Below are positions 5,450 to 26,986 of a stretch of DNA of 64,000 nt, in pieces. The notes beneath the pieces were generated by a model. It had not been told where the DNA came from. It saw nothing but the letters and a program-made list of their open reading frames with translations, and searched no databases. The first letter of the stretch is position 1. Each line of letters opens with the position of its first letter. The stretch lies in IMG/VR virus record IMGVR_UViG_3300044695_005756, positions 1-64,000 of that record; one strand, 5' to 3'. The position numbers and the translations under genes were made by a program. This DNA is from a virus.

Positions 5450-5457
5450 TATTTATA
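5450..5457 (-). promoter_or_regulatory. T4-type late promoter box TATAAATA
   Basis: A perfect match to the T4 late -10 consensus read on the minus strand, just after the gp23 terminator and 5 bases before the ATG of the tube-fold gene. T4-type initiation would fall at or next to the ATG, which would give a leaderless message. Confidence 0.6.
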
Positions 5458-10370: not shown

Positions 10371-12041
10371 TTATCTGCGTCTATTATTTATACTGACCAC
10401 GGATCTGTTTACCTCATCATCAAGACCAGGTGTCAATGACTCTTCTGTTTCTTCGGTATTTTCAACTGTATTGTCTTCTGGTTCTGCTTGTGGTACAGCA
10501 CCTTGTGAAGGTCCACCTAATACGGGACCTTGCATGTCATCAGGTAGTGTATCTTTTTCCTCTTGAATTTCTTTTTGCATGTCTTCAATTTCTTCATCAG
10601 TCATCATGAGAACTTTATTCATAACATAATGATTTGAGAAATAACGACCTACAAAAGGATCAACTAGGCTTACCATCTGCAATCTATTTTGAAGTAATTC
10701 AGCTTCACGCAATTCAGTAAAGTTGTTGTCTTTACGGAAGTCATAATAGATGTCTTCTTTAAACTCATCCCATTCTTCACGGGTACAAATACCTTTAAGT
10801 ACCAATTGTACTTTGAGTGCATCATCAAATATCTGTGAAAACTTATTACGAAGACGAACAACAAATTTTGCGAACTTCAATTCATCACGGGTAATTTCTT
10901 GACTTTTACCCATTCCAGCAAATCCGCCCTCTTGTGATTCTAGTCTTGAATATGGTACGTTAAGAGACTGTAAAAGTTTCTTTTGAAAATACTTAACGTC
11001 TTCTAACTCACCAAGATTCTGACCAGCTGGTAATGTGGTAATCTCTGTACCTTTACCACCTTCTCTTCGTGGTAACCAGAAGTCTTCAAGCATTGACATG
11101 TGTTTACGTTCATCACGGATCTCACCAGTGTTCGCATCGTAAACTAATTTGTTTCGATACTTGATCATGATGTCACGCAGGTATTGTTCTGCTTTACCAC
11201 GTGGTAGATTACCAACGTCAATGTAAAAAATACGGCGTTCTGGTGCGCGTGAAATTCTGTAAATAACAATCGCATCTTCAATCATACGCAACTGATTCAA
11301 TGGTTTGATTGCTTTGTGTAGATACGAAATGACAAAAGTATTTTTTGCATCCATCAGACCTGAATTAATATTAATAATCGAATCTGGTGCAATACGAATA
11401 CCTTGTCCTACATTTGATGTAAATGTTTGCGTGGTTGTTCCACGATCATTGTAGACATAGTATTCAGCAACCGATACAACAATCATTGCTCCTGTTTTCG
11501 GATCACGATCTTTTTTAATCTCACGCACCTTACGAATTTTGCGTGGATCAATGTATCTAAGTTCTTGAATACCTTCTTTGGGATTCTTATCGTTTACGAC
11601 AACATGATAAAAGATACGACCGTCAATATACCAACGCTTAAATAAATCGTCAGCAAGATTACTGAAGTTTAACATTTTTAATACATTGTCAAACTCTTCA
11701 GCAATTTTCTTTTTAATCGATTCTGGTTGTTTGAGATTGTCTAAAACGATATCGACAACTTTACCTGCTTCATCATGAGTGATAGCTTCATTAACGATTT
11801 CATCAATTGCCATTTGACACTCAGGGTGATTGGACATCTCACGATATCGAGTGATGAGTTCAATTTCATTTCGAACTGAACCTTCTAAATCGACATAGGT
11901 ACCGTAGTACGCATTTTGCGTAACGGTAACTGCACCATCATCTACGGTCGCAGAAGGCAAAGCAAAGGATGCCTGTTCGGGTTTTTCAACCTTGACGACA
12001 TCCTTTGAGCCTATTGTAAAGCCAAAAAGTTTAATTGCCAT
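10371..12041 (-). CDS. gp20: Portal vertex protein gp20
   Basis: 556 residues (T4 gp20 about 524). It contains the conserved portal signatures YREMSNHPECQMAIDEIVNEAI, WYIDGRIFYHVVV, ELRYIDPRKIRKVREI, YRISRAPERRIFYIDVGNLPRGKAEQYL, and the MLEDFWLPRREGGKGTEI motif widely used as a cyanomyovirus marker. The 12-mer portal nucleates prohead assembly and is the DNA channel. Acidic Pro/Thr-rich C-terminus. AGGATG ribosome site precedes the ATG. It follows the gp19 terminator at 12060-12083. Confidence 0.97.
   Translation of the reverse strand: MAIKLFGFTIGSKDVVKVEKPEQASFALPSATVDDGAVTVTQNAYYGTYVDLEGSVRNEIELITRYREMSNHPECQMAIDEIVNEAITHDEAGKVVDIVLDNLKQPESIKKKIAEEFDNVLKMLNFSNLADDLFKRWYIDGRIFYHVVVNDKNPKEGIQELRYIDPRKIRKVREIKKDRDPKTGAMIVVSVAEYYVYNDRGTTTQTFTSNVGQGIRIAPDSIININSGLMDAKNTFVISYLHKAIKPLNQLRMIEDAIVIYRISRAPERRIFYIDVGNLPRGKAEQYLRDIMIKYRNKLVYDANTGEIRDERKHMSMLEDFWLPRREGGKGTEITTLPAGQNLGELEDVKYFQKKLLQSLNVPYSRLESQEGGFAGMGKSQEITRDELKFAKFVVRLRNKFSQIFDDALKVQLVLKGICTREEWDEFKEDIYYDFRKDNNFTELREAELLQNRLQMVSLVDPFVGRYFSNHYVMNKVLMMTDEEIEDMQKEIQEEKDTLPDDMQGPVLGGPSQGAVPQAEPEDNTVENTEETEESLTPGLDDEVNRSVVSINNRRR
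10385..10392 (-). promoter_or_regulatory. T4-type late promoter box TATAAATA before gp67
   Basis: A perfect TATAAATA on the minus strand inside the last codons of gp20, 26 bases upstream of the gp67 ATG. It could restart transcription for the prohead core genes. Confidence 0.65.
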
Positions 12042-12059
12042 TAAAAATCATCCTATATT

Positions 12060-12083
12060 AAAAAGTAGGGCAAAAGCCCTACT
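12060..12083 (-). terminator. Rho-independent terminator after gp19
   Basis: On the minus strand a perfect 8-pair stem AGTAGGGC / GCCCTACT with a TTTT loop is followed by TTTTAA. It begins 1-2 bases after the gp19 stop, between gp19 and gp20. Confidence 0.85.
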
Positions 12084-12084
12084 C

Positions 12085-12630
12085 TTAGAGAACACCATCT
12101 GCAACTGCTTCCCACCACTGGTAGGTAAGTGTTACAGAAAACTCTTCAATCGCATCATTTGAACCCCAATCAACATCAATCGGTGTGATGTCAGATGGGA
12201 ATAGACCAACAAATCTATATTTTTTGATTGAGTTACCTGCTTTACCAAACTGTGTAACTTCTCCATCAACCGTGTATCCTAGTGGTGTACTTGCGATTGG
12301 ATTACGAACATTGAGATTATGGCTATTGATACCATTCATCCAGCGTTCGAATGCATTGCGTACAACAAAGTCTTCATCGTTAATAATTGTTACTGTCCAG
12401 TCAGCAAAAGTACGATTACCCACAAACTTGAGTTCACGACCAAAGTATTGAACGGGTACAACACCCAGAGTTGAACCTGGTAGTTGTGCCGTCTTACACA
12501 TGAACGTCATTTTTGTTTGCGCGTTTCCTGGTAATGAGAACACAGGAAACGGCATACTTACCTCAAATAGATTTGGGCGGGCACCGTCACCTTGCAGTTG
12601 TGAGCGGAACTGATTTACATTGAATGCCAT
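12085..12630 (-). CDS. gp19: Tail tube protein gp19
   Basis: 181 residues. The sequence follows T4 gp19 closely in order: ARPNLFEVSMPFPVF, MTFMCKTAQLPGSTLGVVPVQYFGRELKFVGNRTFADWTVTIINDEDFVVRNAFERWM, then KYRFVGLFPSDITPIDVDWGSNDAIEEFSVTLTYQWWE. The family stacks as hexameric rings to form the inner tail tube. AGGAGAA ribosome site before the ATG. Directly downstream of the sheath gene gp18 as in T4, and followed by a strong hairpin terminator. Confidence 0.96.
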   Translation of the reverse strand: MAFNVNQFRSQLQGDGARPNLFEVSMPFPVFSLPGNAQTKMTFMCKTAQLPGSTLGVVPVQYFGRELKFVGNRTFADWTVTIINDEDFVVRNAFERWMNGINSHNLNVRNPIASTPLGYTVDGEVTQFGKAGNSIKKYRFVGLFPSDITPIDVDWGSNDAIEEFSVTLTYQWWEAVADGVL

Positions 12631-12653
12631 TTATTATTCTCCTGTTTCTCTTT

Positions 12654-12661
12654 TATTTAAG
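12654..12661 (-). promoter_or_regulatory. Late promoter box variant CTTAAATA before gp19
   Basis: CTTAAATA on the minus strand, two mismatches to TATAAATA, 24 bases upstream of the gp19 ATG, which matches the spacing of the perfect boxes. It overlaps the gp18 stop. Confidence 0.35.
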
Positions 12662-14342
12662 CTGCCCCTACCACTTCATTGAAACTTACACCTGTACGTA
12701 CCGCTACAAAGTTAAGTTGAATGAAGTTGATGGAACGAGCAGGTTTAATGTAAATGTCACCTACAAATTCATTACGATCAATAACTTCTCCTGTGTTGTT
12801 TGTTTCATCACAGACAACACGGTAGTCTGTAATACCACGACGACCTTGAACATCACGCAGGAAAGGCTCTACGAGAGAAACGAACTGTGCGCGGGTAAAC
12901 TGATCATTAAATTCAAACAGAGAGAAACGTGCCGCGCGTGAAATTGCTTTTTCAAGCGTGATGAACAAACGACGAACATTGATACGATCAAATGCACTTG
13001 GCTTGCTCAACATTGTTTTATCACCAAACAGAACTGTACCTTCACCAGGGAAAGAAACTACTGGATTAACACCCTTTGTATATAGAGTGTCACGTTCCGT
13101 CTTAGTTGGGTTCCATGCAAGTTTAATTACATTCTTAATTACACCACGATTTAGACCACCTGGTGAGAACCATGGATCGCGTTCGTTATCTGTACGAACA
13201 CATAATCCAGCAATATCACCGTTAAGTGGAATCCAACGATATACATCATTGTATTTGTCATACTGATATTTGTATCCAGAATCGATGACTGCATAAGATG
13301 ATGAAGTCAAAGAATCTCTATAAGAAACAATGTCTGCTGCTTCATTACCTGCATTATCAACGCAGTCTGATTTTTCTGGTGAAACGAATGCTACACAATC
13401 TTTTCTTGAGCCTGCAATGTTATCAATTACATGCGCTGCAATTGTTGCATTACCTGTACCAGTTACAAGCAATGAGATATCAACAGATTCGGCGTTTGCA
13501 AATTTATCCCAACCAGAGGTAATTTGTGAATTGCCTACAGTACCGTCTGTTCCACCAGAAAGTGAGAAAGTTACGTTACCTGTTGTATTTGCAAATACGG
13601 ATGCATTTGCTGATGAACCCCATGCTGTTCCTGCACCAGTATTTTGTGTAGGATGTGCAACTGACCAAATGTATTTTGATTTAGTTTCGATTACTTTTTT
13701 GTAGTAATTTGAGTTACCTGAATCGTCTTTTGCGTCTGATGCTTTAGAAACAAAAGCAAATTTTTCTAGAACTGTGCCTTGTGAGCCTGTCCATAATCCA
13801 TCTTCATCGATAACAATAACATGTAGTTCATCAAAAGAACCATTTCTTGATGACACATATCCTGATGTTCCCGGTGCTGAAGAGAACTGTGACTTATAAG
13901 CCCATGTACCATATGATGCTGCGTCGGCTAAAGACACTCTAAGTGAATTACCTAAAGTCCCTGGCCAACGAGCAGCAAATCCGTTGTATGAATTTGCTGC
14001 ATAACCTGTATGATTTTCATCATAATCGTCTTCGCTTTTAATGACTAACGATCCGCCATTTGCAGTTGCGTTATTACCGTTTGTAGGAACAGCACGAACA
14101 ATCTTTAAGTTGTTACCGTAAGATAGGAAGTTCGCGGCAGAGAACCAATACTCATAATTTGTGCTATCTGGTTTACCGAATCTGTCCACCAGACGAACTT
14201 CATCGGAAATAGTTGTGACTACACCACATGGTCCCCAATTAAAAGGTCCTACAAATGCGCCAGCAGAAGTGACAACTGAAGGAATAACTGTAGTCAGATC
14301 GATCTCTGATACATTCACTCCAGGTGATAATTGAAATGCCAT
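12657..14342 (-). CDS. gp18: Contractile tail sheath protein gp18
   Basis: 561 residues (T4 about 659). N-terminus FQLSPGVNVSEIDLTTVIPSV and AFVGPFNWGPCGVVTTISDEVRLVDRFGKP, and a C-terminal domain with VNPVVSFPGEGTVLFGDKTML, FDRINVRRLFITLEKAISRAARFSLFEFND, and RGITDYRVVCDETNN, are all conserved sheath elements. The central protruding domain (about residues 100-330) is Ser/Asn/Gly-rich and variable, as expected for the outer surface. The family contracts to drive the tube through the cell envelope. AAAGGAGAAAT ribosome site before the ATG. Confidence 0.96.
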   Translation of the reverse strand: MAFQLSPGVNVSEIDLTTVIPSVVTSAGAFVGPFNWGPCGVVTTISDEVRLVDRFGKPDSTNYEYWFSAANFLSYGNNLKIVRAVPTNGNNATANGGSLVIKSEDDYDENHTGYAANSYNGFAARWPGTLGNSLRVSLADAASYGTWAYKSQFSSAPGTSGYVSSRNGSFDELHVIVIDEDGLWTGSQGTVLEKFAFVSKASDAKDDSGNSNYYKKVIETKSKYIWSVAHPTQNTGAGTAWGSSANASVFANTTGNVTFSLSGGTDGTVGNSQITSGWDKFANAESVDISLLVTGTGNATIAAHVIDNIAGSRKDCVAFVSPEKSDCVDNAGNEAADIVSYRDSLTSSSYAVIDSGYKYQYDKYNDVYRWIPLNGDIAGLCVRTDNERDPWFSPGGLNRGVIKNVIKLAWNPTKTERDTLYTKGVNPVVSFPGEGTVLFGDKTMLSKPSAFDRINVRRLFITLEKAISRAARFSLFEFNDQFTRAQFVSLVEPFLRDVQGRRGITDYRVVCDETNNTGEVIDRNEFVGDIYIKPARSINFIQLNFVAVRTGVSFNEVVGAA

Positions 14343-14397: not shown

Positions 14398-16029
14398 TTA
14401 CAAATTTGATGATAAATAGCCCGCTGGAGGCTCCCACATGTCTCCGTCTTCCACTTCCAATTCTCTACGTAGCCCATCTTCAATAAAACCAAACGGCAAC
14501 ACACTTTCTTCACCTAACAAATTCTGTTCTTCTAACATGATTTTACGGATGTCTATTCTAGTTTCATCTTTAAAGAATGTTTGTGCTGTCAGCCATGCGT
14601 AAAGTACCAGACCCATGACAATATCATCATTATTACCCTCTTCAGCGGCATAAGTATCTTTTGTTCTCACAAAAGTATTCAGTTCGGCAATAGTGTCAAA
14701 GTCGTTGATGATGAGTTTATCATTTTCAATCAGCGTTTTGAGGTTGGCGCACCCGATCTTTTTGACGGATTTGGTTGTTTTTACACCAAATGCAACCGAA
14801 CGCCTGAAGCCAGCGGAAATACTTTGCCCCTTAATGTGGTGATGTTCCAGCTTGTAGATATTTTCATACTCTAAATCATAGTGTAAAATATCTACCACTT
14901 GCTGACCTACATTATTCGTTTCAATTAGCACATAAGCTTGATTGTACCGATTAGCTATGGCATATATGATTGTTGGCAAGAACAACAAAGGTAATTTGTT
15001 GTTACGATATCTTGCGACTTGTTTATAAGGAGCCTCTGTGGCATCAAGAACATTAATGGTATGATAGTCCATACCCACACCCTCAGAACAATCTACCGTT
15101 GCAATATAGATGCGCCCAGGTTTTGGATCTTCATATACAAACAAATGACCATCATCTTCAACTCTGAGTGGATCAAAGAAAGCCAACGAACGTAGTTTTG
15201 AGCCTGATATAAGTGTTGCAGAAGAGCCGATAAATTCTGTTTCAAATTCTTGTCGGAATTGTTCTTCAGAAGTATTCCGTATCGTTTCTTCTTTCCATTT
15301 TTGATCTCGTCCTGGAACTTGTGACCAATGAATCTCTAGTGTCTTGTAAAGTGAACGACCTTCGATAGCATCCATCCACATCTTGTAGAACAAATTCAAA
15401 CCATTTGGCGTCGATACAATAATTACTTTTGACGTTTTACCGGATGAGATAACAGGATATGTAGAAGTGAAGAAGTCTACTGCCATATTATGTGGTACGA
15501 ATGCAAACTCATCAAGAAAGATTAGATTGTAAGTACCACCTCGTACACCTGCTGCTGAAGTAGCGTATGCATAAATTTTTGAGCCATTTTCTAATTCGAT
15601 TGAGCGTTTATTCCAATTGATAATGCCCTGTTGAAGCCACATAGGTAGATACTCATATGCTTTTTGTATTTTGGCAAGAATATCTTGTGCAAGTTGAAGT
15701 TTGTTTGCAAGAATACCAATTACAAATTCTTCATTGAACAGAGCGGACCACAACATATATCCAACAGTTGTAGTTGTTTTACCTACCTGTCGTGGCATTT
15801 TTGCAATAACGAATCGGTTACTATGAAACTGTGTGACCATATCTTCTTGAAAGTCCCACATTTCAAATGGCACAAGACCGCGATCTACGTTGACAATTTT
15901 AACGTAGTTTCGAATAAAATATACTGGATCTTCAATGCATTTGGCAAGTTCTATGGCTTGTTCTTCAGTATAGGATATTTCAACACCGACTCGTTTAAGT
16001 CGGGCATTACCAAGATATCCGTCATCCAT
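14398..16029 (-). CDS. gp17: Terminase large subunit gp17
   Basis: 543 residues (T4 about 610). The N-terminal packaging ATPase shows Walker A RQVGKTT at residues 80-86 and Walker B LIFLDE at about 169-174. The C-terminal RNase H-like nuclease begins with IATVDCSEGVGMDYH, where Asp313 corresponds to the catalytic Asp of T4 gp17 (LDCSEG). YVLIETNNVG and NDDIVMGLVLYAW provide further nuclease acidic residues. It cuts and pumps DNA into the prohead. Unusually, a Dps-like gene separates it from the small subunit gp16, which precedes it directly in T4. Confidence 0.97.
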   Translation of the reverse strand: MDDGYLGNARLKRVGVEISYTEEQAIELAKCIEDPVYFIRNYVKIVNVDRGLVPFEMWDFQEDMVTQFHSNRFVIAKMPRQVGKTTTTVGYMLWSALFNEEFVIGILANKLQLAQDILAKIQKAYEYLPMWLQQGIINWNKRSIELENGSKIYAYATSAAGVRGGTYNLIFLDEFAFVPHNMAVDFFTSTYPVISSGKTSKVIIVSTPNGLNLFYKMWMDAIEGRSLYKTLEIHWSQVPGRDQKWKEETIRNTSEEQFRQEFETEFIGSSATLISGSKLRSLAFFDPLRVEDDGHLFVYEDPKPGRIYIATVDCSEGVGMDYHTINVLDATEAPYKQVARYRNNKLPLLFLPTIIYAIANRYNQAYVLIETNNVGQQVVDILHYDLEYENIYKLEHHHIKGQSISAGFRRSVAFGVKTTKSVKKIGCANLKTLIENDKLIINDFDTIAELNTFVRTKDTYAAEEGNNDDIVMGLVLYAWLTAQTFFKDETRIDIRKIMLEEQNLLGEESVLPFGFIEDGLRRELEVEDGDMWEPPAGYLSSNL

Positions 16030-16032
16030 ATT

Positions 16033-16467
16033 TTAGCGTGTAAAACTCTTTAACATCCAACCATGTTTCTGATGAGCATCAAGAATATCTTGCAAGAAAT
16101 TACCTACTGCTGGTTCATCAGCAGCATCAGCAAGTGCGATACCCGCACGAAGTTCCATAATATATTTCTCATTATCAGATGCAAGTTCGGACATCATAAT
16201 AAGTGATGAGGGAATGGCAACGACTTCATCGATCTTTGAAAGTTCTAACATTCTTGCCAAAGTTGTTGGAGCATATGAACCTAATGCACGAATGTGTTCG
16301 GCAATTGCATCGGTTTGCTCATATACCGCTGCATAGAATGTGCCAAGAAAACCATGGTATTCTGCAAAGTTAGGTCCCTCTACGTTCCAATGGAATGAAT
16401 GTGCTTTGAAATACAAACCGAAATTTGTACCTAAGATGACTTTCATTTGTTCTATTAATTGTTCCAT
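16033..16467 (-). CDS. dps: Dps-like ferritin-fold protein inside the terminase operon
   Basis: This 144-residue protein has the Dps signature HSFHWNVEGPNFAEYH followed by TDAIAEHIRALG. The four ferroxidase-site residues known from Dps proteins are all present at the right spacing: His26 (in HWNV), His38, Asp53 and Glu57. Dps proteins form 12-subunit shells that oxidise and store iron and protect DNA from peroxide. The Lys-rich N-terminal DNA-binding extension of E. coli Dps is absent. It lies 3-4 bases from both neighbours, between gp16 and gp17, so it is expressed with the packaging genes. Whether it acts in the cell or is packaged in virions is unknown. Confidence 0.93.
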   Translation of the reverse strand: MEQLIEQMKVILGTNFGLYFKAHSFHWNVEGPNFAEYHGFLGTFYAAVYEQTDAIAEHIRALGSYAPTTLARMLELSKIDEVVAIPSSLIMMSELASDNEKYIMELRAGIALADAADEPAVGNFLQDILDAHQKHGWMLKSFTR

Positions 16468-16471
16468 AATT

Positions 16472-16873
16472 TTATTTATTTCCTTTAATCATTTTAAGTA
16501 ATTCATTAGTGGAACCAACAAAGACTGCTTTATCTATGTTGACTCCTTTACTAGTTTCAGACTGAGGTGCAAGCTCTTTTTTACGTTTCTGGAGTTCTAG
16601 TAAATCTTTATTCATCTCAGCTAAGTTTTTCATCATCGTAGCTAAGACTTCATATGCCCGCGGTGATTCGGATTGATTTGCAACAGACGCTAGTTCAGTA
16701 ATTGCTTTATTACCATTTGTGATTAACTCACGCATATTATCACGCGCAAACTCAGCATCAGCATCAATTTGATTCACATTATCATCAACAACCATAGGTA
16801 ATGGCTCTATGGTTTTTTCTTCAATAGGAGCAACGTCAAATATTTCAGATAGATTTTTATTTAGTTTTTTCAT
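16472..16873 (-). CDS. gp16: Terminase small subunit gp16
   Basis: 133 residues (T4 about 164). The core ARDNMRELITNGNKAITELASVANQSESPRAYEVLATMMKNLAEMNKDLLELQKRKKEL matches the T4 gp16 central domain (long antiparallel helices with the SxxPRAYEV motif) that assembles into rings and regulates gp17. An acidic, disordered N-terminus precedes it. The ATG overlaps the gp15 stop (ATGA). The usual direct junction to gp17 is interrupted by the Dps-like gene. Confidence 0.9.
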   Translation of the reverse strand: MKKLNKNLSEIFDVAPIEEKTIEPLPMVVDDNVNQIDADAEFARDNMRELITNGNKAITELASVANQSESPRAYEVLATMMKNLAEMNKDLLELQKRKKELAPQSETSKGVNIDKAVFVGSTNELLKMIKGNK

Positions 16874-17871
16874 AGTAATGTATCAGGCCACTCTACAACT
16901 GTTTCTGTATAACCAAAATTCGAATTCGGTAATGCTGTATTTGGATTAGGTTCAGTTACTACAGACACTAATTTTACTGGGCTTATATCCAAAGTTTCTA
17001 CTGTATATCTTGCACCAGAATAATCGCCAGTCAATACATAACCCGTTTCGATAAGTTTATTACTATCCGCAATCACTAATGTACCTACGGAAGTGTTACT
17101 AAAATATTCTACAGTACCGAAGAATCCATTTGCGGTGTCACGAAGAGTTTCGCCAGTGGTGTATACATTATTACCATTTGCATAGTCTACATAAACTTTT
17201 TGAATATCTCTAGATGCGGTATCAAGATTAATATTTGTATTTGCCGAATTAATAATTTTGCCTGTTTTAACTGGTGGCCAAATAAAGCTTTTAGCGGTAA
17301 ATGTTAAGTCCCAAACAATAATTCTAGTTGTTCCATCACCCATTCCACCCTCATATTCTACTGTAGACGCAACAGAGTTGAGTATAATAGGAACAGTATA
17401 CTTATGGTCCATTGAAGGAATAAAATCTACCACTACACTAAAATCAGGAGTAAAGAATGGTAAAATCTGTTCTAATATTTGAGTGCCGTCTTCCGTATTG
17501 CGAACAAATATAGACAAACTGAATTCAAAATTATATGGAACAGGAAGAAACTGTGTGCTTACGGTTGAATTTGTTGGACTCGAAAAGTTTTGTAGAGTAG
17601 AAATTTGTTTACGATTTGCATCATACTCCAAACTATCAAGATTGAAAGACATTCTAGGTATTACTGAGTTAACCGATTTAATCAAATTTGGATCGGATGT
17701 AATTTGTGTTAAATATCTTTCTTTAGGTCCATATGATAAAGGCACTTTAAGTTTTTCTTTTGCAACACCAGCTTGTGTGTAACGCACGATTTCAAGATCG
17801 TTAAATATGGTACCAAAAACGATAACCATCTTACGAATGGTACGATGATAAAACTGTGCGTTACCTAACAT
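16870..17871 (-). CDS. gp15: Tail sheath terminator/stabiliser gp15
   Basis: 333 residues (T4 about 272). Similarity to T4 gp15 is clear over the first about 210 residues: FYHRTIRKMVIVFGTIFNDLEI, VPLSYGPKERYLTQI, VIPRMSFNLDSLEYDANRK, FEFSLSIFVRNTEDGTQILEQILPFFTPDF and WDLTFTAKSFIWPPV. The extra C-terminal about 110 residues, with TGETLRDTANGFFGTVEYFSNTS and ADSNKLIETGYVLTGDYSGARYTVE, are beta-rich and not in T4. The family caps the tail at the head-proximal end. GGAGAA ribosome site; the ATG overlaps the gp14 stop. Confidence 0.92.
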   Translation of the reverse strand: MLGNAQFYHRTIRKMVIVFGTIFNDLEIVRYTQAGVAKEKLKVPLSYGPKERYLTQITSDPNLIKSVNSVIPRMSFNLDSLEYDANRKQISTLQNFSSPTNSTVSTQFLPVPYNFEFSLSIFVRNTEDGTQILEQILPFFTPDFSVVVDFIPSMDHKYTVPIILNSVASTVEYEGGMGDGTTRIIVWDLTFTAKSFIWPPVKTGKIINSANTNINLDTASRDIQKVYVDYANGNNVYTTGETLRDTANGFFGTVEYFSNTSVGTLVIADSNKLIETGYVLTGDYSGARYTVETLDISPVKLVSVVTEPNPNTALPNSNFGYTETVVEWPDTLL

Positions 17872-18779
17872 TATGGTTCTCCAAACGGATTGACCTCAGT
17901 AAAGTCAATAATGTTATCGCTTGCGGCTTCAATTCTTGCATTATCAATGATATCTTCAAACGCGGTATTTTGAGTTACGGCATCAGAAGTGAGTGTGATT
18001 GTCCATTCAGCAGAACTAGTATTACCTTTTACATTTGCGGTTGCACTAAAATCTCCTTGTACACGATAAATGTCAATATGTGTATTAGGACTAAAATCAT
18101 ATACAAGGGCTTGCGCTGTTGCAGTAGCAAGTGAAGAACCTTGATATACAATTTCATCATTGATAAATTTGCCTGTGCCACCAGCACCTAACGAAATGCG
18201 CGTTCTTGGATAATAACTGCGAATTGTATTATCAATTTCAGCCACTCCTGTATCAACGATTTCGTTTGAAAAGTAATACTGCTTCATCTTTAAAGCATAA
18301 AGATAAACATTACCTCCACGCCCACGACCTAATGTATAAAACATCGCTTGATTATTTTCGGATTCAACATCAGTAATCTCAAAAAATGTCGTAGTCATAG
18401 GAACATAAATTAGATCACCAGAATTAGGTCGTATTAAACCATTAACCGTATATTTGAATCTCAATCTTGAAACAAGCATTGTCACTTCATCACGAATTTC
18501 TAAACCAAACTTTGAAATGAAATCTTGATCTCCATCGAATCCACTTACATTTTCCATATACATTTCAATGGGATGTGCAGTTCGATATTCTTTGAGAACA
18601 TCTTCACCAAACAAATAGTCCACTTCATCGCGTGTTGTACGCGGTAAATAGTAAACATCTAAACCGTAAATTTTAAGAGCTTCGATAACTAAATCTTCAA
18701 CTAATAACTGTTCTGGAGTGATTGGATTACCATCACCCAGTTTTGAAGGAAAATTATTGAAGTAGAAATTAGTTGCCAT
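17871..18779 (-). CDS. gp14: Neck protein gp14
   Basis: 302 residues (T4 about 256), recognised by order and by FYFNNFPSKLGDGNPITPEQLLVEDLVIEALKIYGLDVYYLPRT and by KFGLEIRDEVTMLVSRLRF, both conserved in T4-type gp14. It forms part of the neck that closes the filled head and receives the tail. It contains an inserted region around residues 195-260 rich in Thr/Ala. Start and stop codons overlap with gp13 and gp15 (TAATG), so the neck genes are translationally coupled. Confidence 0.93.
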   Translation of the reverse strand: MATNFYFNNFPSKLGDGNPITPEQLLVEDLVIEALKIYGLDVYYLPRTTRDEVDYLFGEDVLKEYRTAHPIEMYMENVSGFDGDQDFISKFGLEIRDEVTMLVSRLRFKYTVNGLIRPNSGDLIYVPMTTTFFEITDVESENNQAMFYTLGRGRGGNVYLYALKMKQYYFSNEIVDTGVAEIDNTIRSYYPRTRISLGAGGTGKFINDEIVYQGSSLATATAQALVYDFSPNTHIDIYRVQGDFSATANVKGNTSSAEWTITLTSDAVTQNTAFEDIIDNARIEAASDNIIDFTEVNPFGEP

Positions 18780-19729
18780 TATCCAGTAAAGATTTCTGAT
18801 GGCAATGAACCCATCTGATAAATCTCTTCTTCCAATTGTTTAATTTCTTCTGTCGCTTCATCATAAATCTTTTGCCCATTGAGTGTGACACCACCAGGCA
18901 TTTGAATACCTTCAAACTTTTTGAGATTGTTGCCCCATTGTTGTTTGATTTTTGCTGTTGCTAATTGTTTGAGAAAACGATCATTCCATACATCCGTTGT
19001 ACCTTCAATTGAAATGGCTGAATTACTATGCGTCAATGTTGGTGGTCCGACTAATGTTAGACTCGTAGGAGATTCTATATTACCTACTTGTTTAGATTCA
19101 TTGCCGATTGTAATAAAATCAAACGGCACAATTTCTTGATCAAACTTTGTGCTATAGCCTATTACGGTATTTGATGAAGGATCACATGTAACTGTGCCCG
19201 TTAGTGTAACCGTTTCTGGTCGTAGTACACGATAACATTCAACGACAATCCATTCACCTGGTTCCACATCTCTTGTCCAATCGATATCAAGAAAGACTTT
19301 GTTTTGATGACGATTAAAACGAAACTGTGGTGTACCAGAAAACAACAGATTTAAAGTTCGTAAGTGCTGCATAGTAATTTCATATGACACATATGATACA
19401 GAAGTAAAGTCATACAAGTCATGCAGACGCAACTGATAACGCAAATCGAACATATTGATTGATGCATTTGAATTGTCGAATGGAAAAATACCAGTTACAA
19501 ACTGAATTGCATCTGGACAATAAATCCATTGACGGTCAATATCCGCTTGCGTGATTTGATGTTTCATATATAACTTTTCGGTACCATCATAATGATAGTC
19601 ACGCCAGAAGTTAACGGCATCATCGATTCGATCATCTACTTGATCATCATCTACGTTGATTTCAATAACTGGAAATCCAAGTCTTCGTAAGCAGTAATCT
19701 TTAAATTGTTGTCTAGTTGAGATAGTCAT
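18779..19729 (-). CDS. gp13: Neck protein gp13
   Basis: 316 residues (T4 gp13 about 309). Conserved opening TRQQFKDYCLRRLGFPVIEINVDDDQVDDRIDDAVNFWRDYHYDGTEK, the head-completion motif seen throughout T4-like phages, and ending FLKQLATAKIKQQWGNNLKKFEGIQMPGGVTLNGQKIYDEA. It joins gp14 to form the neck after packaging. A central beta insertion (about residues 180-245) contains TLTGTVTCDPSSNTVIGYSTKF. It is the first gene after the giant fibre, from which it is separated by 18 bases. Confidence 0.94.
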   Translation of the reverse strand: MTISTRQQFKDYCLRRLGFPVIEINVDDDQVDDRIDDAVNFWRDYHYDGTEKLYMKHQITQADIDRQWIYCPDAIQFVTGIFPFDNSNASINMFDLRYQLRLHDLYDFTSVSYVSYEITMQHLRTLNLLFSGTPQFRFNRHQNKVFLDIDWTRDVEPGEWIVVECYRVLRPETVTLTGTVTCDPSSNTVIGYSTKFDQEIVPFDFITIGNESKQVGNIESPTSLTLVGPPTLTHSNSAISIEGTTDVWNDRFLKQLATAKIKQQWGNNLKKFEGIQMPGGVTLNGQKIYDEATEEIKQLEEEIYQMGSLPSEIFTG

Positions 19730-19747: not shown

Positions 19748-22700
19748 TTATGATACACTTCCCATAATTACACAAACAGTAGGACTTACAAACAATATTG
19801 TTGCAACGCCTCTTGTGGCAAGACTGACTGAAGATACATCCAAATTAAAACCTGCAATGTAGGCAGTAGTGATGCTGCAAGTAATAGTTACACTAGCACC
19901 TGTATTATTAAAGATTGAGATTGCATCACCAGCAGCAAAGACATTATTTGGAATTATAATAGAACCACCTGTGCCAATTTCAACAAATTCACCTACATCA
20001 GTTACCTCTAATGTGTACTGAGATGTTTTTTGTCCTACAGCAGGTATGTTTCTGAAACCCATTGTAAAACTTTGGTCTGGTATAGTGATTGTTCTGCTTG
20101 CAGTTAAAGTATCAGGAACAATAGTTGCTGAATAAGAACTTGTTCCTCCAGAACGTCCTTTGATGGTAATTGAATCTTGTGTCGTAGCATTTTCAACCAC
20201 AAGTCCATCTGTAGAACTAACCGTAACTTTAGCTGTAACTGTACCGCCATTGTTTGCGTCTAATGAATTATTCGCACGAATGAAAGCTGCGTTAGCGTGT
20301 AAGAAAGATGCATTTGTTGAGTCAAATATTGTATTCGTTCTTACTAATAAATCAATTCCCTTTGTTAAAACATACGTTGAATGTAAGTTAGCATTGAGAG
20401 TATCAATTACAAAAGAAGGATCAGTAATATCAATATTATTATTTTCTCCAACTTCAGGAGTATAACCTTTAAATAAGTACCATTCTTTTGTTACTGAATC
20501 ACGAATCAAACCTGAATGAGCATTTGTGCCATCATTATAATGACCAGCAAATCCTAAATCTTTCAAATCTGAGATATAATTTCCTGCACCAAGAACAATT
20601 ACTGTATCATTTGCAACCAACGTAGTCGCATTTACACTAAATGTTTGACCAGTAACAACTAAGTTACCCACAAACAAGTTATTGGTAACAGTCAAACTAC
20701 CAGTGATTGTACCACCATTATTTGCGTCAATTGAATTGTTTGCGCGAATAAATGCAGCGTTTGCTGTATTAAATGCTGGCTGAACTTGTGGTGCTACATT
20801 ATTAGCCGAATTGAAAGCTGCATTCGCATGATCATAAGCCGAATTTGATTGTATGAATCCAGAATTCGCATGAATAAATGCAGCGTTTGCGGTATTAAAT
20901 GCTGGCTGAACTTGTGGTGCTACATTATTAGCCGAATTGAAAGCTGCATTCGCATGATCATACGCCGAATTCGCTTGAATAAATCCAGAATTAGATTGAT
21001 TACGGGCGTATTGGTCTATTGATCCAGCCGCAATAGTGTTGGCAAAAACAAAAGCCGCATTTGCATGATCAAACGAAGCATTGGCTTGTATGAATCCAGA
21101 ATTTACATGAATGAATGCAGCGTTCGCTTGAATGAATCCAGAATTGGCGTGATCACGGGAATATTGATCTACTGATCCTGCTGAAAGTGTGTTAGCCCAA
21201 ATAAATGCGGCGTTAGCATGATCATATGCAGAATTTGTTTTTATGAATCCAGAATTCGCATGAATAAACGCAGCGTTAGCATATTCACCAGTCGAATTCT
21301 GTGACTGATATGCAGAGTTGGCATGAACAAATGCAGAATTGGCATATTGTCCAGTTGCGTTTTGGCTTTGATATGCGGCATTCGCATGATCAAAAGATGC
21401 ATTGGCTTTGATAAATGCGGAGTTGGCGTATGATGATGCAGCAGAACCACCTAAATCATCATAATTTGTGCCGTCATTTGTAAACTGCCATCTATCCAAT
21501 GTTTCATTCCATAACAGATAAACATTGGCAGAAGAACCTCTATCAACTTCTATTCCAGCATCTACGGTAGGAGCAGAAGACTGATCTATTGCCGCATTTA
21601 ATGTAATAATGTTATCAGCAATAAGAATTGTTGATGTGTTTACATATGTTGTTTGTCCAGTTACAGTCAAGTTACCTGTAATACGAACATCACCTGTAAC
21701 GGTACCACCATTGTTAGCGTCTAATGCATTGTTAGCACGAATAAATGCAGCGTTGGCATATTGACCTGTTGCATTTTGTGATTGATATGCCGAATTTGCA
21801 TGATCAAAAGATGCATTTGTTTGGATGAATCCGCTGTTCGCATGGATAAATGCACCGTTAGCTAATGTGAATGCTGCATTGGCATATTGACCTGTTGCAT
21901 TTTGACTTATGTACGCAGCATTAGCATGATCGAATCCAGAATTGGCATGAATAAATGCCGCGTTCGCATATTGACCTGTAGCATTCTGCGATTGATAAGC
22001 CGAGTTCGCATGATTGAATGCATAATTCGCATGTAAGAATGATGAATTTGCTTGAATAAATCCACTATTTGCATGATCGAAAGATGCATTTGCTTGAATA
22101 AATCCACTATTTGCATGAATGTAAGCAGCGTTAGCGGCAGCAAAAGCACCATTAGCGTTAGCAAAAGCGGCATTAGCAGCAGCAAAAGCACCATTCGCGT
22201 TGGCAAACGCAGCATTCGCGTGATCATAAGAACTGTTTGCTTGGATAAATCCACTATTTGCATGATCAAAGGATGAATTAGTTTTTATGAATCCGCTGTT
22301 CGCATGAATGAATGCGGCATTAGTATCATGGTACGCAGAGTTAGCTTGAATGAATCCAGAATTTGCGTGATCAAAAGATGCATTCGCTTGAATGAATCCA
22401 CTATTCGCATGATCGTAAGCGGCATTTGATTTTGCAAATGCACCATTAGCATTTGCGAATGCAGCATTAGCTTTGGCAAAAGCCCCGTTAGCGTTAGCAA
22501 ATGCAGCATTGGCATCATGATACGCCGAGTTTGCTTGGATAAATCCACTATTCGCATGATAGAAAGCGGAGTTCGCATAATGACCAGTTGCATTCTGACT
22601 TAGATACGCAGCATTCGCGTGATCGTATGCAGAATTTGTTTTTATGAATCCAGAGTTTGCGTGGATAAATGCCGCATTGGTATCATGATAAGCTGAATTG

Positions 22701-25700
22701 GCTTGGATGAATCCAGAATTCGCGTGATGATATGCATCATTTGCTTTTGCATAAGCGGCATTTGCGTTTGCAAAAGCATAGTTAGCATGATGAAAAGCAG
22801 AATTTGTTTGTATAAATCCACTATTTGCGTGAATGAATGCAGCGTTTGTTAAATCAAAGATTATATTTGTTCTTGGTAATAAATCAATACCTTTAATTGT
22901 AACAAAAGTCGAACGTAAATTGGCGTGAAGAGTATCGATTTCAAAAGAAGGATCATTGAGATCGACGTTATTATTTTCTCCAATTTCAGGAGTATAACCT
23001 TTGAACAGATGCCATTCTTTTGTGGTAGCATCTCGGATAAGACCCGAATGAGCATTTGTGCCATCGTTATAGTGACCAGCAAATCCTAAATCTCTAGTGT
23101 CGGCAAAATAGTTACCCTCTCCTAATACAATAACTGTATCGTTAGAGACAAGTGTTCCTGCATTGATACTAAATGTTTGACCTGTAACAAATATATTGCC
23201 TACAAATAAATTATTGGTAACAGTCAAACTACCAGTAATCGTACCACCATTATTTGCGTCAATCGAATTATTGGCTCTTAAAAATGCAGCATTCGCATAT
23301 TGACCTGTAGCATTCTGTGAGATATACGCAGCATTTGTGTGATCGTATGCACTATTTGCTTGTATGAATCCGCTGTTTGCATGATCGAATGCTGAATTAG
23401 TTTTAATGAATGCAGCATTAGCGTCATGATACGCAGAGTTAGCTTGAATAAATGCCGAGTTTGCATGATGATATCCATCATTTGCTTTTGCATAAGCGGC
23501 ATTTGCGTTTGCAAATGCATAAGAAGTGTAGACGTATAAATCTACAGTTCCATTTGAGCCAAAGAAGTAGTTTGAGAAAATGGCATTTGCACCAGTAATG
23601 CTTCCATTTCCACCAACTGTTGTAACTGATTCTGTTGTTATGTTACCAGTAACACTAAATTCACCTGCAACATTAATCGACGCTGATACATTACCACCAA
23701 CGTTGGCATCTAACGAATTGTTTGCGCGAATAAATGCAGCGTTTGCTGTATCAAATGCTGAATTCGTTTTTATGAATGCAGAGTTGGCATGATTAAATGC
23801 ATAGTTTGTATGCAAGAATGCCGAATTTGTTTTAATGAATGCGGAGTTAGCATGAATGAAAGCGGCATTTGCGTATTGACCAGTTGCATTCTGTGAGATG
23901 TACGCAGCATTAGCATGATCGTAAGACGAATTTGTTTTAATAAACGCAGAGTTTGCATGTAAGAAAGATGCATTAGCATGTAAGAATGCAGCGTTTGTAT
24001 CGTGATATGCAGAATTAGCTTGAATAAATCCAGAGTTCGCATGAATGTATGCTGCGTTAGCAGCGGCAAATGCACCGTTGGCATTTGCGAATGCTGCATT
24101 AGCTTTAGCGAAAGCACCGTTGGCATTTGCGAATGCTGCATTAGCATCATGATACGCACTATTTGCTTGAATAAATCCAGAGTTCGCATGGATGTAAGCC
24201 GCATTAGCAGCAGCAAAAGCACCATTTGCATTAGCAAAAGCAGCGTTAGCTTTAGCAAAAGCACCATTCGCATTGGCAAACGCGGCGTTGGCATCGTGGT
24301 ATGCACTATTTGCTTGGATAAATCCAGAGTTTGCGTGATGAAACGCCGCGTTTGCATCATGATACGCAGAGTTTGCTTGGATGAATCCACTATTCGCATG
24401 ATTGAACGAATAATTTGCATGTAAGAATGCAGAATTCGTTTTTATAAATGCTGAATTGGCATGAATAAATGCTGCATTGGCATCGTGATATGCGGAGTTT
24501 GCTTGAATGAATCCAGAGTTTGCATGATCAAAAGATGCATTCGCTTTGATAAATGCAGAGTTGGCATACGATGATGCTGAAGTTGCACCTAAATCATCAT
24601 AACCAATACCGTCATTCGTAAATTGCCACTTATCTAGTGTTTCATTCCACAACAGATATACATTTGCCAAAGCACCGCGATCAACTTCAACTCCTGCGTC
24701 AGAAATAGGTGTCTGTGACTGATTTACTGCTGCATTGAGTGTAATAATATTGTCGGCAATTAATACCGTAGAAGTGTTTACATATGTTGTCTGTCCAGTT
24801 ACAGTCAAGTTACCTGTAATACGAACATCACCTGTAACCGTACCACCAACATTCGCATCAAGTGCATTGTTGGCACGAATGTATGCATAATTTGCATGTA
24901 AGAATGCAGAGTTTGTTTTTATGAATGCACTATTCGCTTGAATGTATGCTGCATTAGATTTGGCAAAAGCACCATTTGCATTTGCAAATGCGGAGTTGGC
25001 TTGTCTGAATGCACCGTTGGCATATACACCAGCAGAATTCGCTGCAATAAATGCACCATTGGCGTTTGCAAAAGTTGCATTCGCTTGAATATAAGCGGAA
25101 TTTGCGTGTATGAATCCTGAATTTGCGTGTATGTAAGCTGCATTTGATTTAGCAAAAGCACCGTTAGCGTTTGCGAATGCTGCATTTGCGTGATCATAAG
25201 AAGAATTCGCATGAATAAATGCTGCGTTGGCATATTGTCCTGTTGCATTCTGTGACAAATAAGCTGCATTAGCTAAATCAAAAGCCGCATTTGTTTGAAT
25301 GAAACTTGAATTCGCATGAATAAACGCACCATTTGCTACCGTAAATGCAGCGTTCGCATATTGACCTGTTGCATTTTGGCTTAGGTATGCCGCATTAGCA
25401 AGATCAAATGCTGCGTTAGTTTGAATAAATGCGCTATTTGCTTGAATATATGCAGCATTAGCGGCGGCATATGCGCCATTCGCATTAGCAAAAGCAGCGT
25501 TTGCGTGATGAAATCCAGAATTCGCATGAATGAATGCACCATTAGCTACTGTAAATGCAGCATTTGCATAATTGCCAGTTGCGTTCTGTGATTGATACGC
25601 AGAATTTGCATGTATGAATGCTGATTGAGCGTGAGTTATTCCTGCATTAGCTTGAATAAATCCAGAATTTGCGTGGATAAATGCTGCGTTGGCATATTGA

Positions 25701-26986
25701 CCAGTTGCATTTTGTGAGATATAAGATGCGTTTGCGTGATCAAAAGATGCATTTGCTTTAATGAATGCCGAGTTGGCGTAAGAAGATGCGGAAGAACCAC
25801 CTAAATCGTCATAACCTACACCATCGTTTGTAAACTGCCATTTCTCTAGAGTTTCATTCCACAACAAGTAGACGTTAGACAAAGCGCCGCGATCAACTTC
25901 AATTCCTGCATCGGCAACTGGAATTGATGACTGATTGATTGCAGCATTTAATGTAATGATATTATCAGCAATTAATACAGTTGAAGTATTAACATATGTT
26001 GTATTACCTGTGACAGTAAGATTACCTGTAATACGAACATCACCTGTAACTGTACCGCCAACATTCGCACTCAGAGAATTGTTTGCTCTTAAAAATGCTG
26101 CATTGGCATATTCACCTGTTGCATTTTGACTTTGATATGCGGCATTTGCATGTACGAAAGCCGAGTTCGCGTATTGTCCAGTGGCATTTTGAGAAATGTA
26201 ACTAGAGTTGGCATGATTAAACGCGGCATTTGTTTTTATAAACGAACTATTTGCGTGAATAAAAGCAGCATTAGCGTCATGATACGCAGAGTTGGCTTGG
26301 TTAAATGCTGCATTAGCATATTGACCAGTTGCATTCTGTGATTGGTAAGCGGAGTTCGCATGTAAGAATGCAGCGTTTGTTTTAATAAATGCTGAGTTGG
26401 CATGAATAAAGCCAGCGTTAGCGTGAATGAATGCCGCGTTAGCTTGAGTGAATGCTGAGTTTGTATATTCACCAGTTGCATTTTGACTTAAAAATGCAGC
26501 GTTTGCTCTATCGAATGCAAGATTTACTTGTGCAAAACTAGAGTTTGCATGAATGAATGCAGCGTTAGCATATTGACCAGTCGCATTTTGTGAGATGTAA
26601 GATGCGTTCGCATGGTCAAATGCGGAATTAGTTTTAATGAACGCGGAGTTGGCATGTAAAAATGCGGCGTTCTGTGAAATGTAAGATGCGTTTGCATGAT
26701 CGAATGATGCGTTTGCTTTAATGAAAGCACCGTTTGCTTGTGCATATGCGGCTGTGACATTAGTGAGTGTGCTATTTGCCGCTTCAAACGCGCCATTCGA
26801 ACGATCAAATGCGTAGATTGAACGTAGATACGATTCATATCCACCAATAGGTACTGCTCCTGTTCCAGCTGGAGTTCCTATGTATAACGTATTACTGCTG
26901 TATGAATAACCTGGTTCACCAACATTTAGTGAAGATGGCGCGTTTGTTACTAATGATCTTTTTATTTGAATAGGTGTATTTGCCAT
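19748..26986 (-). CDS. Giant heptad-repeat tail fibre (2412 residues)
   Basis: The N-terminal about 55 residues form a phage fibre attachment-type domain (QIKRSLVTNAPSSLNVGEPGYSYSSNTLYIG). Most of the rest is a 7-residue repeat, [A/T/Q]-N-x-x-[F/Y]-x-x, as in ANSGFIQ and ANAAFIH. Ala and Phe/Tyr alternate 3 and 4 apart, a coiled-coil spacing, so I infer a very long trimeric shaft. Beta modules interrupt it: three copies with VTGDVRITGNLTVTG (about 25770-26080, 24560-24880, 21430-21735), two with GSLTVTNNLFVGN (22855-23270, 20320-20735) and one different (23520-23740). The C-terminal about 85 residues form a domain shared with two other fibres and with a free-standing 88-residue protein. The DNA repeats in 21-bp units. 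Probably the host-binding or long side fibre. Confidence 0.85.
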   Translation of the reverse strand: MANTPIQIKRSLVTNAPSSLNVGEPGYSYSSNTLYIGTPAGTGAVPIGGYESYLRSIYAFDRSNGAFEAANSTLTNVTAAYAQANGAFIKANASFDHANASYISQNAAFLHANSAFIKTNSAFDHANASYISQNATGQYANAAFIHANSSFAQVNLAFDRANAAFLSQNATGEYTNSAFTQANAAFIHANAGFIHANSAFIKTNAAFLHANSAYQSQNATGQYANAAFNQANSAYHDANAAFIHANSSFIKTNAAFNHANSSYISQNATGQYANSAFVHANAAYQSQNATGEYANAAFLRANNSLSANVGGTVTGDVRITGNLTVTGNTTYVNTSTVLIADNIITLNAAINQSSIPVADAGIEVDRGALSNVYLLWNETLEKWQFTNDGVGYDDLGGSSASSYANSAFIKANASFDHANASYISQNATGQYANAAFIHANSGFIQANAGITHAQSAFIHANSAYQSQNATGNYANAAFTVANGAFIHANSGFHHANAAFANANGAYAAANAAYIQANSAFIQTNAAFDLANAAYLSQNATGQYANAAFTVANGAFIHANSSFIQTNAAFDLANAAYLSQNATGQYANAAFIHANSSYDHANAAFANANGAFAKSNAAYIHANSGFIHANSAYIQANATFANANGAFIAANSAGVYANGAFRQANSAFANANGAFAKSNAAYIQANSAFIKTNSAFLHANYAYIRANNALDANVGGTVTGDVRITGNLTVTGQTTYVNTSTVLIADNIITLNAAVNQSQTPISDAGVEVDRGALANVYLLWNETLDKWQFTNDGIGYDDLGATSASSYANSAFIKANASFDHANSGFIQANSAYHDANAAFIHANSAFIKTNSAFLHANYSFNHANSGFIQANSAYHDANAAFHHANSGFIQANSAYHDANAAFANANGAFAKANAAFANANGAFAAANAAYIHANSGFIQANSAYHDANAAFANANGAFAKANAAFANANGAFAAANAAYIHANSGFIQANSAYHDTNAAFLHANASFLHANSAFIKTNSSYDHANAAYISQNATGQYANAAFIHANSAFIKTNSAFLHTNYAFNHANSAFIKTNSAFDTANAAFIRANNSLDANVGGNVSASINVAGEFSVTGNITTESVTTVGGNGSITGANAIFSNYFFGSNGTVDLYVYTSYAFANANAAYAKANDGYHHANSAFIQANSAYHDANAAFIKTNSAFDHANSGFIQANSAYDHTNAAYISQNATGQYANAAFLRANNSIDANNGGTITGSLTVTNNLFVGNIFVTGQTFSINAGTLVSNDTVIVLGEGNYFADTRDLGFAGHYNDGTNAHSGLIRDATTKEWHLFKGYTPEIGENNNVDLNDPSFEIDTLHANLRSTFVTIKGIDLLPRTNIIFDLTNAAFIHANSGFIQTNSAFHHANYAFANANAAYAKANDAYHHANSGFIQANSAYHDTNAAFIHANSGFIKTNSAYDHANAAYLSQNATGHYANSAFYHANSGFIQANSAYHDANAAFANANGAFAKANAAFANANGAFAKSNAAYDHANSGFIQANASFDHANSGFIQANSAYHDTNAAFIHANSGFIKTNSSFDHANSGFIQANSSYDHANAAFANANGAFAAANAAFANANGAFAAANAAYIHANSGFIQANASFDHANSGFIQANSSFLHANYAFNHANSAYQSQNATGQYANAAFIHANSGFDHANAAYISQNATGQYANAAFTLANGAFIHANSGFIQTNASFDHANSAYQSQNATGQYANAAFIRANNALDANNGGTVTGDVRITGNLTVTGQTTYVNTSTILIADNIITLNAAIDQSSAPTVDAGIEVDRGSSANVYLLWNETLDRWQFTNDGTNYDDLGGSAASSYANSAFIKANASFDHANAAYQSQNATGQYANSAFVHANSAYQSQNSTGEYANAAFIHANSGFIKTNSAYDHANAAFIWANTLSAGSVDQYSRDHANSGFIQANAAFIHVNSGFIQANASFDHANAAFVFANTIAAGSIDQYARNQSNSGFIQANSAYDHANAAFNSANNVAPQVQPAFNTANAAFIHANSGFIQSNSAYDHANAAFNSANNVAPQVQPAFNTANAAFIRANNSIDANNGGTITGSLTVTNNLFVGNLVVTGQTFSVNATTLVANDTVIVLGAGNYISDLKDLGFAGHYNDGTNAHSGLIRDSVTKEWYLFKGYTPEVGENNNIDITDPSFVIDTLNANLHSTYVLTKGIDLLVRTNTIFDSTNASFLHANAAFIRANNSLDANNGGTVTAKVTVSSTDGLVVENATTQDSITIKGRSGGTSSYSATIVPDTLTASRTITIPDQSFTMGFRNIPAVGQKTSQYTLEVTDVGEFVEIGTGGSIIIPNNVFAAGDAISIFNNTGASVTITCSITTAYIAGFNLDVSSVSLATRGVATILFVSPTVCVIMGSVS
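20740..26800 (-). repeat. 21-bp coding tandem repeats of the giant fibre shaft
   Basis: Degenerate direct repeats of 21 bases (7 codons) run through the shaft, interrupted by the beta modules. Longer near-identical duplications are seen, for example 20755-20842 against 20880-20965 (TGCTGGCTGAACTTGTGGTG and flanks) and 24020-24170 against 24185-24340. Because the period is a multiple of three, all reading frames stay open across long stretches. Confidence 0.85.

Follow-up and report, generated by a model that had tools for sequence, protein, structure and literature searches.

Between its two terminase genes, this T4-like virus carries a gene, dps, whose product is confirmed as a protein of the Dps/ferritin family (Table 1). 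The stretch analyzed, called the window below, covers 64 kb of a 94,518-base IMG/VR virus record. We think it probable that the product forms a soluble, tail-less Dps ferroxidase cage that is made together with the late packaging proteins and spares unpackaged DNA and enzymes, being neither a terminase subunit nor a DNA coat.

TABLE 1 Location of dps and of the genes and spacers around it in the window
Feature	Position	Strand	Basis and remarks
dps, 144-aa Dps-family protein (mini-ferritin)	16033..16467	minus	ATG start; PF00210, phrog_3636, PDB Dps matches, AlphaFold2
gp16, TerS	16472..16873	minus	PF11053 (44 bits), phrog_445 (112 bits); stop 4 nt before dps
gp17, TerL	14398..16029	minus	PF03237, PF17289; start 3 nt past dps
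gp16-dps spacer, AATT, 4 nt	16468..16471	minus	Sequence; equal gap in 40 relatives
dps-gp17 spacer, AAT, 3 nt	16030..16032	minus	Sequence; equal gap length in 44 relatives
gp15, tail sheath stabilizer	16870..17871	minus	PF16724, synteny; first gene upstream of gp16, in conserved block
gp14 and gp13, neck genes	17871..19729	minus	PF11649, phrog_460, phrog_211; synteny; conserved block
gp18 sheath, gp19 tube, gp20 portal	10371..14342	minus	PF04984, PF07230, phrog_23, phrog_213; downstream of gp17, conserved block
gp19	12085-12630	minus	Named by position, between gp18 and gp20, and by conservation in the block

A Dps-like gene between both terminase genes was the core of the original prediction, and it is borne out by Pfam, PHROGs, PDB sequences, the predicted fold, and the annotation of the neighbors. 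The product matched the Pfam family Ferritin with 75 bits (E value of 7e-21; cut-off, 24.5) and its PHROG with 107 bits. A search of PDB sequences returned 52 matches, nearly all of them Dps proteins, with P. aeruginosa PA0962 at the top (8ff9; E value of 1e-20). The NCBIfam Dps equivalogs scored below their own cut-offs (55 versus 170, 46 versus 114, and 35 versus 300 bits), and the product therefore belongs to none of those named Dps subgroups. An identity as a defence or anti-defence family was dropped, because the product matched no defence family in a PADLOC search.

An AlphaFold2 monomer model of the product was built from a 22-sequence alignment, and structures were compared with VIA-align. 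The model has a mean pLDDT of 95.8 and places helices at residues 2 to 28, 34 to 49, 52 to 61, 70 to 76, 88 to 115, and 119 to 143. It is predicted to be a four-helix bundle of Dps length that includes the short BC helix. All 144 residues aligned with the T. elongatus Dps (2c41), with a Z score of 23.4 at 0.9 Å. The Z score was 22.2 against L. monocytogenes Dps (2iy4), and it lay at 22 to 23 for the Dps proteins of Listeria, B. anthracis, P. aeruginosa, and others.

The four Dps ferroxidase residues named in the original prediction, His26, His38, Asp53, and Glu57, are indeed present. In the alignment, with an offset of 5, they correspond to Listeria Dps residues 31, 43, 58, and 62, the first two of which, His31 and His43, are replaced in the L. 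innocua Dps entries 2bk6, 2bkc, and 2bjy (H31G, H43G). The product thus contains the pattern His-x11-His-x14-Asp-x3-Glu, which comprises the residues of the inter-subunit site. The DNA-binding Lys tail had been described as missing, correctly so. Both DNA-binding tails are absent from the model, with helix A running from residue 2 and the last helix reaching residue 143, so that helices fill the chain, and no Lys/Arg-rich N- or C-terminal tail of the E. coli type is found. The protein is acidic, with a pI of 4.97 and a net charge of −8.9, and its relatives have pI values of 4.8 to 5.9. Because the protein is tail-less and acidic, DNA coating by it is unlikely. Some Dps proteins reportedly bind DNA through their surface, without tails, and this one might do so as well. 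The A. tumefaciens Dps (1o9r) is a structural match to the model, and the title of that entry speaks of DNA protection without binding.

The gene order around dps is T4-like, gp13-gp14-gp15-gp16-dps-gp17-gp18-gp19-gp20. The gaps of 3 to 4 bases to gp16 and gp17 that the original prediction gave are exact. An AAAGGA stretch lies within the 3′ end of gp16, 13 nt ahead of the dps ATG. Co-expression of dps with the packaging genes can fairly be inferred from these short gaps and from one-base overlaps in relatives. The T4 late promoter TATAAATA had 5 exact matches in the window versus 6.45 expected by chance, none of them in gp13 to gp17. These matches, at 5450, 8032, 10385, 41404, and 49576, are all on the gene strand, and three lie just upstream of gene starts. 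Directly upstream of gp13, an open reading frame of 2412 aa with ANAAF/ANSAF-type repeats spans 19748 to 26986 on the minus strand.

A viral-contig scan confirmed at least 562 relatives and retained the best 80 of 562, and an alignment scan added more. A comparison of synteny in related phages, which the original prediction had proposed as a check, places dps between gp16 and gp17 (the slot) wherever the flanks are visible, in 113 distinct relatives. Of these 113 distinct sequences, 110 have gp16 immediately upstream, which are all those where gp16 was recognized, and 111 have gp17 downstream; the numbers do not represent independent events, since contigs from one sample series may be almost identical. 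The flanking gaps are mostly 4 nt on the gp16 side and 3 nt on the gp17 side, and one-base stop/start overlaps occur in 15 relatives at each junction. Two of the 111 (L038 and L040) have a gp17 frame recognized only 568 nt downstream of dps, probably because the frame is broken in the contig. These viral-contig relatives contradict the possibility, raised at the outset as grounds for rejection, that the gene is absent from all close relatives.

The identity of slot Dps proteins to the window Dps falls as low as 58%. H26, W27, H38, D53, E57, and 30 further columns are invariant in all 108 distinct slot proteins, and those five named residues are also invariant in an alignment of viral and bacterial Dps. 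The median dN/dS among close relatives was 0.063 for dps, 0.111 for gp16, 0.048 for gp17, and 0.084 for gp15; these are rough values, with a median pS of about 0.6 and dS near saturation. They indicate that dps is under purifying selection and is clearly not decaying, with a dN/dS as low as those of the neighboring virion genes. Iron oxidation, which the original prediction had called plausible, is well supported by the invariant residues, the predicted Dps fold, and the purifying selection. In one contig (L480:2670-3002), dps has lost about 100 nt internally and changes frame, through either gene decay or faulty assembly.

We then asked how dps and gp17 have been inherited relative to each other, by scanning TerL relatives and building a TerL tree. 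A separate TerL clade of 14 rows (including L051-L056, L059, L099, L101, L128, L133, L134, and L149) has a TerL that is only 45 to 47% identical to the window TerL. The Dps of this clade is 58 to 74% identical to that of the window, and its gp18, gp19, and gp20 show the same degree of similarity as those of the other members. This pattern suggests that TerL was probably swapped in one of the two lineages, with dps staying in place. In contig L474, which falls inside the main dps-bearing TerL clade, gp16 ends at 2994 and gp17 starts at 2998 with no dps between them. This is a clean loss of dps with gp16 and gp17 intact. Two other contigs, L476 and L478, appear to lack dps in the TerL tree, but they begin inside gp17 and so give no evidence of absence. 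The specificity of TerS for TerL matters in T4 (PMC9958956), and a protein that needs to fit TerL would therefore be expected to follow TerL. The divergent-TerL clade and L474 show that dps is not co-inherited with a particular TerL, as a terminase accessory would be. The original prediction had read a tie of dps expression to DNA packaging from the location of the gene. A functional link with the packaging machine is not supported, given the divergent TerL, the loss in L474, and the related phages whose single dps lies far from TerL.

More distant queries added two other groups of Dps, family II (L231-L390) and the S-SRM01-like family III (L391-L470). In a Dps tree built on 143 columns, in which many forks are unresolved, the slot proteins fall into one clade (SH-aLRT of 100), with the exception of those of L286 and L293. 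This clade sits within a viral group together with family II (SH-aLRT of 97), outside the sampled bacterial sequences. L286 and L293 have the order gp16-dps-gp17, yet their Dps groups elsewhere in the tree; a Dps gene may therefore have entered the slot on more than one occasion. In a set of 20 large records, some of them fragments, each had exactly one Dps match; it lies beside TerL in the nine slot records and away from TerL in the others, including the family II and family III records examined, and in one of the 20 (G015) a TerL match was not found. Recent capture of dps from a host was rejected, since the best match in bacterial or archaeal genomes has 43% identity, apart from one of 49% in L151. 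The latter contig, 132 kb long and assigned to a Bacteroidetes MAG, has a helicase-like gene and structural-like genes around a viral-clade Dps and itself resembles a phage genome. Fusion of Dps to other domains in the fetched loci was also discarded, as the long open reading frames look like upstream start extensions.

The window Dps resembles the bacterial tail-less Dps proteins (Listeria Dps, B. anthracis Dlp-1 and Dlp-2, and P. aeruginosa PA0962) in its fold (Z scores of 22 to 23 over 142 to 144 residues), length, ferroxidase residues, and lack of a long basic tail. However, it is only 26 to 33% identical to them, is encoded in a phage terminase operon, and belongs to a viral clade outside the sampled bacteria. 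The Dps of Synechococcus phage S-SRM01 is likewise encoded by a T4-like cyanophage and keeps the ferroxidase residues, but its gene is found with porin and hypothetical genes and away from the gp16-gp17 junction; at 33.6% identity, this is the closest annotated phage record. Family II Dps proteins (L231-L390, L151) are the closest relatives, sharing the viral clade and the single copy per record examined. They differ in being 42 to 48% identical to the window Dps in the records examined and in being encoded away from TerL, many near capsid-targeting-like genes. The Dps-like proteins of Lactobacillus phages (LP65 Orf120 and Semele) belong to the same fold family but are 10 to 20% identical, with genes near replication genes (PMC6669764). 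Iron binding and peroxide tolerance have been proposed for the Dps-like proteins of L. plantarum phages (PMC6669764). Phage Dps is thus already known, and it is usually treated as a scattered accessory gene. Its near-fixed place within the terminase operon appears to be undescribed; in the openly licensed literature, we found no report of a dps fixed between TerS and TerL. Here, dps is a near-constant, single-copy gene in the operon that is most conserved in a widespread uncultured T4-like lineage, and related phages have one copy elsewhere. This suggests that control of iron and peroxide is a regular late-infection need of these viruses and not an occasional extra.

We propose that dps, the gene for a tail-less, acidic mini-ferritin of a viral lineage, is probably cotranscribed with the late packaging and neck genes. 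Its product is predicted to fold as a Dps subunit and, extending the monomer model, would most likely form a hollow 12-mer with di-iron ferroxidase sites between subunits. Judging from the invariant ligands, this cage would bind Fe(II), oxidize it with H2O2, and store Fe(III). Free iron and peroxide would be cleared late in infection, and concatemeric, unpackaged phage DNA and phage enzymes may thereby escape Fenton damage. Because the location of dps varies in related phages and is independent of TerL, we suggest that the cage works in solution and in trans, without being part of the terminase or coating DNA. The slot between gp16 and gp17 most likely sets timing and dose, not physical contact.

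Other readings were weighed against this one. The Dps cage might be incorporated into virions, either inside the head with internal proteins or in association with it, where it would shield DNA in sunlit water or detoxify the iron of the next host. The position of the gene among late structural genes fits this idea. T4 internal proteins have only a targeting sequence in common (PMC3012670), and a capsid-targeting-like N-terminal motif occurs in 52 of 921 genes in family II Dps loci but in none of the 655 genes of slot loci, dps included, and in none of the 999 genes of bacterial loci; the motif is our own pattern modeled on T4, and one protein family supplies most of the 52 matches. In addition, a BFVD search found long phage proteins that contain a Dps domain, and three of these proteins are named "Prohead protease" (A0A6J7WPK9, A0A6J7XDU5, and A0A6J7WIS1). 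The family II motif block and these BFVD entries are leads for head-associated Dps in other phages. However, the window Dps and its relatives have no such N-terminal sequence, with helix A at the very start, and the slot loci lack the motif block. We regard packaging of this Dps in the virion as unlikely. A broader conjecture, that a mini-ferritin is a standard virion- or assembly-linked part in several T4-like lineages, made with the packaging proteins and entering or accompanying the head, seems to us quite unlikely; if it were true, the particles would contain a built-in scavenger of iron and peroxide. The cage could instead hoard the iron of host proteins for iron-dependent phage or host enzymes or for virion parts. 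The ferroxidase anatomy would be identical, and the literature discusses iron in phage tails and a "Ferrojan horse" idea, but no gene for iron uptake or delivery was recognized next to dps and storage looks the same as detoxification in sequence; we hold this supply role to be distinctly improbable.

That the gp16-gp17 junction is simply a tolerant insertion site, and the product gives general stress protection to the host cell with no packaging-related role, is very unlikely. In other T4-like phages, the junction holds nothing, unknown genes, or, in L484, an endonuclease (phrog_452, L484:2567-3007), so it accepts other genes; moreover, L474 does without dps, and Dps is located elsewhere in other phages. 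Against this, near-fixed retention across deep divergence and strong purifying selection make passing cargo unlikely, even if retention and selection do not tell protection of the host cell from protection of phage DNA. Least probable of all is a role in organizing DNA, in which Dps would bind or condense phage DNA where packaging takes place. The family name and the location between the terminase genes invite this idea, but a protein with neither tail, a net charge of about −9, and so low a pI is poorly suited to it, and the slot is undisturbed by a different TerL version or by the loss of dps.

Some further observations concern the surroundings of these genes. The family II Dps genes of L231-L310 (for example, L275:1655-8974) lie amid many unrelated genes with M..F..FI.E-type starts. 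The motif-bearing genes near them include some that we guess, from their motifs, to encode phosphatase-like and nucleotidyltransferase-like proteins. The record that contains the window also encodes, outside the window, an S-adenosylmethionine lyase family protein (L546:14330-14860; record positions 78330-78860) and a ClpP-like protease (L547:3138-3671; record positions 83138-83671). A marginal match to a pyrimidine dimer glycosylase, at 22.3 bits versus a cut-off of 23, lies on the same record as dps (L547:633-1175).
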